A stretch of 64,000 bases of DNA. Source: an uncultured Armatimonadota bacterium. Its GTDB lineage: Bacteria; Armatimonadota; Fimbriimonadia; Fimbriimonadales; Fimbriimonadaceae. The position numbers and the translations under genes were made by a program. Shown here piece after piece: positions 49,902 to 53,161 of the stretch (its first letter is position 1; the number at the start of each line of letters is the position of its first letter). The notes under the pieces are model-generated. The model made no database searches and was not told the DNA's origin. It saw only the letters and a list, made by a program, of their open reading frames with translations. The stretch is from positions 62,001 through 126,000 of the forward strand of contig CAIYLG010000012.1 in assembly GCA_903927025.1 (NCBI GenBank). The letters run 5' to 3'.

Positions 49902-52007
49902 TCACAGCCCGAGAATCTTCTGAATGAGCGCCTTTTGCGCATGGAATCGATTTTCTGCTTGGTCAACGACCTTGGATTGAGGTCCATCGATAACCTCTTC
50001 GGTCACTTCAAACCCTCGTCGTGCGGGCAGGCAGTGGAGGAAAATGGCGTTCTTATCCGCGATCTCCATCACCTTGCCATTCACCTGATATGGCTCGAAT
50101 ACCTTGAGGCGATGGTCCTGTTCGTGCTCGTCCCCCATCGACACCCAAACGTCCGTGTAAACCACGTGGGCTCCGGTGAGACCCTCTTCCAAATTGGTCG
50201 TCTGGGTCATCCCCTCAATGGGTTCGAGCCGGAAGTTCTCAGGTCCGCAGATGGTGAACGGATGTCCCAGCCGGGTGGCAAGCTTGGCGAGTGACCGGGC
50301 CACATTGTTGCCGTCACCCACGTAGGTGATCTTGACCTTGTCGGTGCCAAAAGACTCCTGAATCGTCTGCATATCCGCCAGTGCCTGGCAAGGATGCTCC
50401 CATTCGGTGAGGGCGTTGATGACGGGGACTTCTGCCCATTGTGCCAACTCGGTCAGGTGCTTCTGCCAATAGAGTCGAGCCACGATGAGGTTGCACCATC
50501 GCGAAAGATTCTGGGCGATATCCTTGATGGGTTCTCTTGAACCCATCGCGATATCTCCCTTTCCAAGATGGATCGGCTGGCCGCCCAATTCTCGGATTGC
50601 GGCTTCAAATGAGACTCGTGTTCGAAGCGACTGCTTTTCGAAGACCATCGCCACCGTGCGATTTTCGACGCCGGTGATGACGGCAGGGGCGACCTTCCTT
50701 CGGTGCTTGCTGAAAGCGGCAAGGTCAAGAATCTCTTCGATCTGAGCAAGAGAGAGGTCGTCAATCGAGAGGAAGTCGTGCAGGGGTGCTGGCGATACCT
50801 TCACCGTTGCCGTCTTAGGAAGAACTGGTGCGGTCACCTGGATGACTTCTGCGATGATTCCGAGCGCATGCTCGATCTGCTCTTCCGTCACGATAAGCGG
50901 TGGCACAAATCGGAGGCAATACTCGTCGGTCGCGTTGATGATCAGCTTTTGCTCAAAGCATTTCTTAACAATGTCCCGGGCGATTGGCTGCTCGAGCTGA
51001 GCTCCGATCATAAGACCTCTGCCGGATACGGCAAACCCCATCGAGGTCAGAGCGGTTTTAAGCTTCTCACCCAACTCGGCGGTCTTCGTGAGCAGGTCCT
51101 GGTGCTCGATGGTGTCGATCACCGCGAGGGCTGTGGCACAGGCGAGAGGGTTTCCGCCAAAAGTGGACCCGTGATCGCCTGGTTCAAGAATCTCTGCGGC
51201 CTTACCGGCGGCCATCGTTGCGCCTATTGGGACTCCGCCAGCCAAAGCCTTTGCAGTGACCACGACATCAGGCTTGAGATCGTGATGCTGGTACGTGAAC
51301 CATTTGCCTGAGCGACCCATGCCGCACTGAATTTCATCCAGCATGAACAGAGCGTTGTGTTCCTCACACAGGTTCTGCGCCTCATGGAGAAATTCTGGAG
51401 TGAGCTCCAGGATGCCACCCTCGCCCATGATGGGTTCGAGGAGGATCGCCGCCACTTTGTGCGAGAACGCGTCTCGGAGCTCTTCAATGCTGTTTGGCGC
51501 GATGTGCACGAACCCAGGCACGATCGGCTCGAAGGGCCGCTGATACTTTCGCTGTCCGGTTGCAGACAGAGCACCGAGCGATCTTCCGTGGAAGGACCTC
51601 TGAAGGGTGATGATGGTGTAGTCCCCGTCTGGTCGCTTAGAATTGCCGTGCTTCTTGGCGATTTTGAGGGCGCACTCAATTGCAGTGGCGCCGCAGTTTG
51701 CAAAGAACACCCGGTCCATCCCGCTTATCTTGCAGAGCTTTGCCGCCAGTTGGGCCTGGGGTGCGGTCAGCAGGATATTCGAAGTGTGGATAAGTTGCTG
51801 AGCCTGGCGAGTGATGGCTGCTACAACGGCTGGGTGGCAGTGCCCCAATTGGCATACCGCGATTCCGGCAAGCAGGTCTAGATACTCGTTGCCTCGGTTG
51901 TCCCAGAGGCTGCATCCGGATCCCTGAACGAACAGCGCGGGCATCCGGTTGTAGGTATGCATCACATACTGGTCGTCGGTTGATTTGATAGTGTCGTACT
52001 TGAGCAT
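49902..52007 (-). CDS. argD-argF: Fused acetylornithine aminotransferase - ornithine carbamoyltransferase
   Basis: A single frame of 701 residues encodes two arginine-pathway enzymes. Residues about 1-395 are a class III PLP aminotransferase: RVFFANCGATAIECALKIAK, EPIMGEGGI, FMLDEIQCGMGRSGKW and the PLP lysine in VTAKALAGGVPIGA. Residues about 405-701 are an ornithine carbamoyltransferase: carbamoyl-phosphate loop FEKQSLRTRVSFEAA (STRTR replaced by SLRTR), EHPCQALADMQTI, DVWVSMGDE for ornithine binding and HCLPARRGFEV. The linker (about 395-410: PVLPKTATVKVSPAP) has no stop or start. AAGGAATCA precedes the ATG. ArgD makes N-acetylornithine and ArgF uses ornithine two steps later, so an acetyl-removing enzyme (ArgJ or ArgE) must be encoded elsewhere. 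The two genes are normally separate. Confidence 0.93.
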   Translation of the reverse strand: MLKYDTIKSTDDQYVMHTYNRMPALFVQGSGCSLWDNRGNEYLDLLAGIAVCQLGHCHPAVVAAITRQAQQLIHTSNILLTAPQAQLAAKLCKISGMDRVFFANCGATAIECALKIAKKHGNSKRPDGDYTIITLQRSFHGRSLGALSATGQRKYQRPFEPIVPGFVHIAPNSIEELRDAFSHKVAAILLEPIMGEGGILELTPEFLHEAQNLCEEHNALFMLDEIQCGMGRSGKWFTYQHHDLKPDVVVTAKALAGGVPIGATMAAGKAAEILEPGDHGSTFGGNPLACATALAVIDTIEHQDLLTKTAELGEKLKTALTSMGFAVSGRGLMIGAQLEQPIARDIVKKCFEQKLIINATDEYCLRFVPPLIVTEEQIEHALGIIAEVIQVTAPVLPKTATVKVSPAPLHDFLSIDDLSLAQIEEILDLAAFSKHRRKVAPAVITGVENRTVAMVFEKQSLRTRVSFEAAIRELGGQPIHLGKGDIAMGSREPIKDIAQNLSRWCNLIVARLYWQKHLTELAQWAEVPVINALTEWEHPCQALADMQTIQESFGTDKVKITYVGDGNNVARSLAKLATRLGHPFTICGPENFRLEPIEGMTQTTNLEEGLTGAHVVYTDVWVSMGDEHEQDHRLKVFEPYQVNGKVMEIADKNAIFLHCLPARRGFEVTEEVIDGPQSKVVDQAENRFHAQKALIQKILGL

Positions 52008-52243: not shown

Positions 52244-52272
52244 TTGCACGCGGCGCTCTCCCGGACTATAAT
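52244..52272 (+). promoter_or_regulatory. Strong sigma-70-type promoter
   Basis: TTGCAC, a 17-base spacer and a perfect TATAAT (52267-52272). It is the best promoter match seen in the window. Transcription would start near 52279 and give a leader of about 108 bases. Confidence 0.75.
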
Positions 52273-52278
52273 GGCCTA

Positions 52279-52387
52279 GCAGTTTGAACCTGCAACCCGA
52301 TTTGGGTGTTGAGGGTATAACTCTCGAAGCGCTGGTTCAAAGGCGCATTAACATTCCGAAAGGAATGGTTTGTCAGGAGGTGTTTGT
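52279..52387 (+). ncRNA. Structured 5' leader, candidate cis-regulatory RNA
   Basis: An outer stem TTTGAACC / GGTTCAAA (52283-52290 with 52334-52341) encloses two hairpins: CAACCC-GATTT-GGG(TG)TTG (52293-52311) and AGGG-TATAA-CTCT (52312-52324). A third hairpin CATTCC-GAAA-GGAATG (52352-52367) has a GNRA tetraloop and stands just before the strong AGGAGG (52375-52380). This order suggests control of translation initiation. It does not match a riboswitch class I can recall. Confidence 0.5.
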
Positions 52388-52528
52388 ATGACTAAGAAGA
52401 TTTTCGCGCTCGTGATGGTGGTCAGCGTTCTCGGTGCATTTTTGGCTGGATGCAAGAAGGATGAGGCCGGAGCTGACAGCGCTTCAGCTGCATCGTCCGC
52501 AGCTTCGTCCGATTCTGCAACCAAGTAA
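52388..52528 (+). CDS. Tiny lipoprotein, 46 aa
   Basis: The 46-residue product has a signal peptide (KKIFALVMVVSVLGAFLAGC) with lipobox LAGC. The mature part is about 25 residues: KKDEAGADSASAASSAASSD then SATK, a low-complexity Ala/Ser/Asp chain. AGGAGG lies seven bases before the ATG. A near-consensus promoter, a structured leader and a strong terminator surround it, so it is probably highly expressed. It resembles entericidin- or Lpp-like small lipoproteins in layout only. Confidence 0.8.
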   Translation: MTKKIFALVMVVSVLGAFLAGCKKDEAGADSASAASSAASSDSATK

Positions 52529-52569
52529 GCTAATTTAGCCGAACGCTGCCCATTTAACGGGCATCAATA

Positions 52570-52605
52570 AAGGGTTCCTGTCCAAGAGTGACAGGAACCC
52601 TTTTT
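52570..52605 (+). terminator. Rho-independent terminator
   Basis: A perfect 13-pair stem AAGGGTTCCTGTC / GACAGGAACCCTT with a seven-base loop, followed by T5. It ends the tiny lipoprotein transcript. The A-rich left flank means it can also act for the convergent coiled-coil lipoprotein gene. Confidence 0.9.
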
Positions 52606-52615
52606 GATTTGTGGT

Positions 52616-53161
52616 CTACAGGTTTTGTAGCTTTTGCGCCGTCTCTTTGACTTTTGCGCTTGCCGAATCGTATTCCGACTCAGCGTCTTTCAACTTTTTC
52701 TGAAGATCTTGATATTCGGCGTCGGCATGCTCCAGCTTCTCGCGAACATCCTGGACCGATTTTGTGGCGTTGTCTTTAACTTTCTTCGCCTCCGCCACCT
52801 TGTCATCCATCTCCTTTTGGAGTTTTTTGATGTTGAGGGCTGCCTCCAATCTCTGGAGCTGATCCTTCACGGAGTCTAACTTCAGTGAATCGAGGCTGGT
52901 AGGCGCTTTGATCTCCGACAGTTTTGTCTTAACGTTTTCGAGACTCGACTTGGCGGATTCGATCGCCGGCTTGGCAGAATCCAGATTGATGTTTGCCGCC
53001 TGCTTTGAGGCGCTCTGCCAAGCCTTGCTGGCAAAACCTGCCGCGGTACTCATTGCAGCCTTGCCCTGAGCCAAGGCTTGATCCTGTTGTTTTTGGTCAC
53101 AGCCCGCCACCCCGATTGCCAAGGCAATCAGAACGGGGGCTGCTTTTTGTATCGTTTTCAT
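52616..53161 (-). CDS. Coiled-coil lipoprotein
   Basis: A 181-residue lipoprotein (signal PVLIALAIGVAGC, lipobox VAGC). The mature chain is almost wholly helical and rich in Lys, Ala, Glu, Ser and Gln, with heptad-like patterns (LEAALNIKKLQKEMDDKV, VQDVREKLEHADAEYQDL). No known domain. Its start overlaps the stop of the nucleotidyltransferase gene (ATGA), so it is made from the same mRNA. A structural or periplasmic spacer role is inferred. Confidence 0.75.
   Translation of the reverse strand: MKTIQKAAPVLIALAIGVAGCDQKQQDQALAQGKAAMSTAAGFASKAWQSASKQAANINLDSAKPAIESAKSSLENVKTKLSEIKAPTSLDSLKLDSVKDQLQRLEAALNIKKLQKEMDDKVAEAKKVKDNATKSVQDVREKLEHADAEYQDLQKKLKDAESEYDSASAKVKETAQKLQNL

Follow-up and report, generated by a model that had tools for sequence, protein, structure and literature searches.

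Does the structured leader in front of a gene for a 46-residue lipoprotein represent a new regulatory RNA, or does it serve the message that carries it? The question is raised by a 64,000-nucleotide stretch of DNA (here called the window) from a Fimbriimonas-like genome of the Fimbriimonadaceae, for which a sequence-only reading had proposed that the leader may be a new cis-regulatory RNA or that the transcript may work as an RNA. The features on which that proposal was built, namely a leader of about 108 bases (109 as delimited here), an outer stem with two hairpins, a GAAA-capped hairpin, an AGGAGG, the lipoprotein and a terminator, were all confirmed from the sequence.

The lipoprotein gene, its promoter and its surroundings

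The basic elements of the unit are arranged as follows.

52244-52272, + strand: promoter P1, made up of TTGCAC, a spacer of 17 bases and TATAAT (TATAAT at 52267-52272)
52279-52387, + strand: P1 leader of 109 nt, with +1 assumed at the TATAAT start plus 12 and the ATG at 52388
52375-52380, + strand: Shine-Dalgarno sequence AGGAGG
52388-52528, + strand: lipoprotein open reading frame of 46 amino acids, with the lipobox LAGC and about 25 mature residues, many of them A, S, D or K
52569-52603, + strand: intrinsic terminator, the inverted repeat of which also shows up as a self-match

Matches to the protein were found in 55 of the 101 genomes searched (E ≤ 0.01), a protein profile matched 68 of the 85 family genomes (E ≤ 0.001; paralogues counted in), and purifying selection acts on the signal peptide (pN/pS of 0.21). 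The lipoprotein had no Pfam or NCBIfam match above cut-off, entericidin profiles included, and no solved relative. When it was compared with LptM, model NF047847 gave 11.7 bits (E of 0.22), which is below the cut-off of 27.7 bits, and the open-licence literature searched contained no paper on the lipoprotein or its leader. The protein presumably plays a role in the envelope.

Together with its promoter, leader, strong ribosome-binding site (RBS) and terminator, the gene occurs family-wide and often at one conserved position: 31 of the 50 leader-bearing loci have a divergent argD-argF gene, a convergent nucleotidyltransferase gene or both as neighbors, a count made on flanks of at most about 1.5 kb per locus, in which absence is weak evidence. 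Sequence and covariance-model searches found no further copies in the window's genome. Divergent from the lipoprotein gene lies an open reading frame of 701 amino acids (49902-52007, minus strand) resembling an argD-argF fusion, with a class-III aminotransferase domain (argD-like) at residues 17 to 389 and both domains of an ornithine/aspartate carbamoyltransferase at residues 411 to 695. A gene for a coiled-coil, lipoprotein-like protein of 181 amino acids (52616-53161, minus strand) converges on the unit and is found at the equivalent position in genomes G004, G012 and G019. The terminator inverted repeat may be common to both units, also serving this converging gene, which ends at 52616.

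P1 had been described as a near-consensus promoter, but its TTGCAC matches TTGACA at only three of six positions; a consensus scan reported no sigma-70 site at P1. TTGCA is the usual −35 in the family, and promoters of the form TTG(C/A/T)-N-TATAA(T/A/C) were present in 32 of 63 homologous upstream regions, compared to 0.1 in shuffles. Since TTGC-N-TATAAT gave 36 matches in five genomes and its reversed control 19, P1 is not a rare promoter type. In a sister Fimbriimonas group (L028, L030, L032, L033, L034, L038 and L047), P1 is overlapped by the motif GAAYC-N17-CGTA (CGTG in L028), which we take to resemble an ECF-sigma promoter. As a regular expression, this motif matched 8 of the 63 regions, against 0.5 in shuffles. 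For F. ginsengisoli, 30 rpoE-type genes are listed in PMC4072686.

Known RNA classes and the fold of the P1 leader

No Rfam family reached its gathering score in the window or at 20 loci. Permissive settings brought up three candidates only, each far under its cut-off and rejected: mir-5886 (26.7 bits, cut-off of 85; 52542-52634, including the terminator), Rhino_CRE (17.5 bits, cut-off of 45) and Alpha_RBS (12.5 bits, cut-off of 38).

Regulatory readings of the leader were then considered by type. No internal terminator was found in it. A hairpin that could sequester the RBS (ACACU...AGGUGU), suggestive by eye, was discarded, its energies being no lower than those of shuffles in most rows. More generally, the energies of RBS helices resembled those of shuffles (median p of 0.41; 4 of 44 below 0.1), and an RNA thermometer found no support in the accessibility of the RBS (unpaired probability of 0.44 versus 0.43 in shuffles, p = 0.60). 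As to a riboswitch or attenuator, the homologues had no aptamer-like consensus in common: the covariance model R1, built from four leaders, strongly matched 4 of 61 genomes (G000, G004, G012 and G019, with E below 1e-30), beyond which it gave two weak matches (E of 0.25 and 0.88), and DNA similarity to P1 and the leader was confined to G004, G012 and G019. With no shared consensus, leader terminator or consistent masking of the RBS, the suggestion of a new cis-regulatory class (switch, attenuator or thermosensor) was not sustained; the data provide no evidence of a new regulatory RNA class, and the leader is probably no riboswitch-like regulator.

The following structures can be drawn in the 5' part of the leader.

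52283-52341, + strand: outer stem of 8 pairs, UUUGAACC (52283-52290) with GGUUCAAA (52334-52341), around two hairpins
52279-52293, + strand: 5' hairpin GCAG-UUUGAAC-CUGC, which would form in place of the outer stem and is predicted in the G012 and G019 leaders
52295-52307, + strand: inner hairpin ACCC/GGGU, conserved, with one-sided changes only
52329-52346, + strand: hairpin GCGCU-GGUUCAAA-GGCGC, which cannot coexist with the outer stem and is 5'-terminal in the putative P2 transcript described below

The outer stem was present in the minimum free energy (MFE) fold of the whole transcript and in that of nucleotides 52279 to 52346 alone, where none of 200 shuffles was equally stable (z of −3.28). 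The segment 52277-52390 (z of −2.44, 4 of 200 shuffles equally stable) preferred the GCGCU/GGCGC hairpin, which excludes the outer stem. The preferred folds differ between these contexts because the hairpin at 52329-52346 and the outer stem share GGUUCAAA. The loops UUUGAAC (52279-52293) and GGUUCAAA (52329-52346) are perfectly complementary and could form kissing loops, the core of which is invariant in the four closest genomes.

The earlier claim that no other 5' region in the window has even half as much structure as the leader proved wrong. When 141 intergenic upstream regions of 109 bases were folded from the window's genome, 19 equaled or exceeded the leader's MFE of −35.8 in stability, one of them within the window itself (3576, plus strand, MFE of −36.1). 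Only when measured against shuffles was the P1 leader (52279-52387) the most structured of 20 compared in the window (z of −2.28; next, −2.15). Compensatory changes, for which covariation analysis had been proposed, were found in the separate GAAA hairpin (see below) and not in the outer stem, where 7 of the 8 pairs are invariant in four sequences and therefore uninformative on covariation. The covariation term of the four closest leaders was small, and the 5' hairpin at 52279-52293 was invariant in four sequences except for one loop base.

These alternative folds could constitute a bistable regulator specific to this clade, in which UUGAACC of the P1 transcript either pairs with GGUUCAA in the outer stem, or both segments sit in the loops of the GCAG/CUGC and GCGCYG/CGGCGC hairpins and kiss, a signal or protein shifting the balance and hence decay or translation. 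Its complementary segments are indeed perfect and invariant in the four closest leaders, but invariant pairs provide no test, and part of this invariance belongs to the P2 promoter. Similarly, each fold comes close to the optimum in one or another sequence or context, with RNAalifold favoring the hairpins, yet the leader offers neither a terminator nor consistent RBS masking on which a switch could act, and nothing comparable is demonstrable beyond four genomes. We consider such a regulator unlikely.

A probable internal promoter and the predicted 5' ends

Within the leader and beyond it, a second promoter type was apparent.

52314-52321, + strand: probable −10 element of P2, GGTATAAC, with TATAAC at 52316-52321; as RNA, part of the hairpin at 52309-52327
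52328-52387, + strand: putative P2 leader of about 60 nt, with a 5'-terminal hairpin, a tetraloop hairpin and an unpaired RBS
G000:C53:47907-47935 and tRNA loci L103-L108, L111, L114 and L117-L120: sites of the putative stable-RNA promoter motif TTGC-N-GGTATAA(A/C)

The motif GGTATAA(A/C) was present in 28 of the 63 upstream regions, against 0.2 in shuffles, and the base following GGTATAA was A or C in all 28 and never T. It lay inside 13 of 37 P1 leaders, always at leader nucleotides 30 to 36 and in variable surrounding sequence. In other genera it is the sole promoter-like element, sometimes with a TTGC −35 located 16 to 17 bases upstream. When 16 genomes were searched for TTGC-N(17-20)-GGTATAA(A/C), 12 of the 20 matches immediately preceded a tRNA gene (Gly, Ile, Thr, Asn or Glu); two others belonged to the lipoprotein gene (G030 and G057), and six had no adjoining tRNA. 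The tRNA-Gly gene of the four closest genomes carries TTGCATTC...GGTATAAC with a diverged spacer. These sequence matches suggest that TTGC-N-GGTATAA(A/C) marks promoters of stable RNAs in the Fimbriimonadaceae. Since the GGTATAA(A/C) type is found before tRNA genes, GGTATAAC at 52314-52321 is most simply read as the −10 of P2, a probable second promoter internal to the leader and about 49 bp from P1, and a promoter −10 accounts better for the apparent structure of the GGGUAUAAC arm. The window's P2 has no recognizable −35, the best candidate matching 2 of 6 positions of TTGACA where TTGCA was sought at about 17 bases. In the window's genome, GGGTATAAC occurs only four times, and in the sampled part of that genome GGTATAA(A/C) was not found upstream of any called gene of at least 90 amino acids. 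The sequence-only reading had missed this internal promoter, a hairpin conserved in the 3'UTR and the conservation of the unit throughout the family.

A P2 transcript, with +1 at about 52328, would begin with an A followed by the GCGCU-GGUUCAAA-GGCGC hairpin, the GAAA hairpin and an open RBS. Counterpart 5' hairpins were located at nucleotides 1 to 2 of all 13 internal P2 starts. A hairpin beginning at nucleotides 1 to 3 was found at 13 of 13 internal P2 starts (7.1 in shuffles), 11 of 11 P2-only starts (6.3) and 31 of 35 P1 starts (21.0); in sum, 24 of 24 P2 and 31 of 35 P1 leaders have a stem within a few nucleotides of the predicted 5' end. The first five nucleotides of P2 transcripts had a mean unpaired probability of 0.18 at the predicted start, which rose to 0.33 and 0.28 when the start was shifted two nucleotides upstream and downstream, respectively, and to 0.76 and 0.61 when it was shifted by ten. 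Compared to controls in which the first six nucleotides were fixed and the middle was shuffled, the value was lower in 24 of 24 cases (0.18 versus 0.45, p = 1.2e-7). The effect was weaker at P1 starts (0.38 versus 0.55, lower in 27 of 35, p = 2.4e-5), and in the first 45 nucleotides of P1 leaders taken alone, pairing began no earlier than in shuffles (23 of 35 versus 19.1, highest 26). In G012 (L017), the first P1 nucleotides were less paired than in shuffles, and the window's own P2 leader was only mildly unusual (z of −1.52). In three genomes of one other genus, the 5' hairpin was 95.8% paired, with one pair appearing as A-U, U-A and G-C, values within the shuffle range. In our view, the case for the start, and likewise for the function, rests mainly on the pairing peak at the predicted P2 start.

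Structure was also conserved across the family. In 50 leaders, taken from the assumed start (12 nt after the first −10 base) to the ATG, the mean z was −2.07, compared to −0.61 for length-matched sequence on the far side of each promoter, upstream of it (p = 3.4e-6, paired Wilcoxon test); it was −1.93 for the 29 syntenic non-duplicate leaders and −0.43 for 141 other upstream regions that served as controls in the window's genome. Hairpins of at least four pairs capped by GNRA or UNCG were present in 15 of 46 leaders, against 3.7 ± 1.9 in shuffles (never more than 9 over 300 rounds), 3 for the antisense strand and 9 in the 141 control regions, and this sense-strand specificity argues for selection acting on the RNA. 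In the window, this hairpin is the following.

52352-52367, + strand: GAAA-capped hairpin CAUUCC/GGAAUG, before the RBS

In six Fimbriimonas-group rows, which were picked for having the tetraloop, a choice that inflates pairing, 91.7% of the cells were paired and 4 of 6 pairs were changed on both sides. None of 500 shuffles reached the covariation score, and slid versions paired at 28 to 53%. G012, with a five-base loop and six pairs read by hand, was left out of these rows. Negative z-scores, strand-specific tetraloops, compensatory changes and a maximum of pairing where the 5' end is predicted support a leader that is genuine, conserved and selected for structure, whose shape is kept while its sequence turns over.

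The same observations weigh on the view that promoter DNA and a high G+C content produce the structure incidentally, in an ordinary UTR. The role of the GGGUAUAAC hairpin arm as a promoter element and the unexceptional raw MFE fit this view, whereas dinucleotide-shuffle z-scores, the sense-strand bias of the tetraloops, the sharpness of the 5'-end pairing peak and the compensatory changes do not, and we hold it to be improbable. Still less probable is that the inner GGUAUAAC is an RNA element, either a hairpin or a pause signal, instead of a promoter: it follows the P1 −10 by 44 to 50 bases in 13 of 13 cases and is frequently extended to GGGUAUAACCC, but it is the sole promoter-like element in other genera, has a TTGC −35 in several, equals the −10 of tRNA genes, and pairing peaks at the start predicted from it.

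The 3' end of the message carries a further hairpin.

52547-52563, + strand: 3'UTR hairpin UGCCC-AUUUAAC-GGGCA, 3' of the stop codon

In six rows chosen for this form, 96.7% of the cells were paired and 3 of 5 pairs were changed on both sides. When read by eye, 18 of 20 Fimbriimonas-group genomes showed AUUUA downstream of the stop codon, and UUUA-loop hairpins resembling that of the window occur at L027 and L051. A dual-function small mRNA, the transcript of which also acts as an RNA through the AUUUA hairpin or its loops as contact sites, would suit a short message with both ends closed and a conserved AUUUA loop in its 3'UTR, but is very improbable given a coding sequence under purifying selection and a leader sequence unconserved across the family.

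A lipoprotein message of a known design

The explanation that we favor, with a probability of roughly 0.6, is that the unit produces a strongly transcribed small-lipoprotein mRNA with a hairpin sealing its 5' end, a design that is known but of which this instance has not been described. The promoter motifs, the hairpins and their statistics are observations, from which we infer start sites, a stabilizing effect and high expression. The E. coli ompA and papA leaders have 5'-terminal stem-loops followed by a single-stranded ribosome site and are protected from 5'-end-dependent decay. The unit described here likewise concerns an envelope-related mRNA with a stem at or beside the predicted 5' end and an open ribosome site, protection being presumed, but it belongs to another phylum, encodes another protein, has no sequence relation to these leaders and possesses two starts, one with a tRNA-type −10. 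Braun's lipoprotein gene, lpp, is also monocistronic and encodes a small lipoprotein between a strong promoter and a terminator; our gene has this layout, but Pfam and NCBIfam gave its product no match above cut-off. Tandem P1/P2 promoters are a feature of stable RNA operons, which the unit resembles in having two promoters, one with the −10 type of tRNA genes, and from which it differs in that its product is an mRNA and that the window's P2 has a degenerate −35. Entericidins and Atu8019 of Agrobacterium, as described in PMC7296081, are tiny lipoproteins comparable in size (mature part of about 25 to 32 amino acids), although the protein studied here matched no entericidin profile.

According to the favored explanation, P1, with its TATAAT, and P2, with the tRNA-gene-type −10 GGTATAAC, would both feed one gene, and each start would place the first nucleotides in or beside a stem, followed by a second, often tetraloop-capped hairpin and then by the open AGGAGG. 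The paired 5' end would hinder RppH and 5'-sensing RNases (decay of the RNase E/J type) and yield a long-lived message, the other end of which would be closed by the 3'UTR hairpin and the terminator. An envelope lipoprotein would probably be supplied steadily and in large amounts. The window's genome encodes both RNase J (528.6 bits, cut-off of 400) and RNase E/G (337.7 bits, cut-off of 25.5). As stated in PMC3997798, RNase E and RppH require single-stranded 5' ends, such that 5' structure stabilizes a message, and Bacillus mRNAs are stabilized by 5' hairpins, with RNase J involved.

A more speculative extension, which we put forward only tentatively, is that this mRNA family is built like stable RNAs, with a tRNA-type promoter and a start locked to base 1 or 2 of a hairpin, so that lipoprotein output would track the supply of tRNA and hence the growth rate, the hairpin keeping its shape while its sequence is free; in the window's clade, P1 would add a switch formed by kissing loops or by the outer stem.

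These findings bring to notice an uncharacterized, widespread small lipoprotein, and they suggest that TTGCA-N17-GGTATAA(A/C) may serve as a stable-RNA promoter signature for a phylum with little transcription data in the literature searched. They also put to an evolutionary test an idea that comes mainly from a small number of messages in E. coli and Bacillus: within one family of Armatimonadota, a single mRNA appears to have kept its 5'-terminal hairpin at the predicted start despite sequence turnover, while the accessibility of the RBS is not specially controlled.
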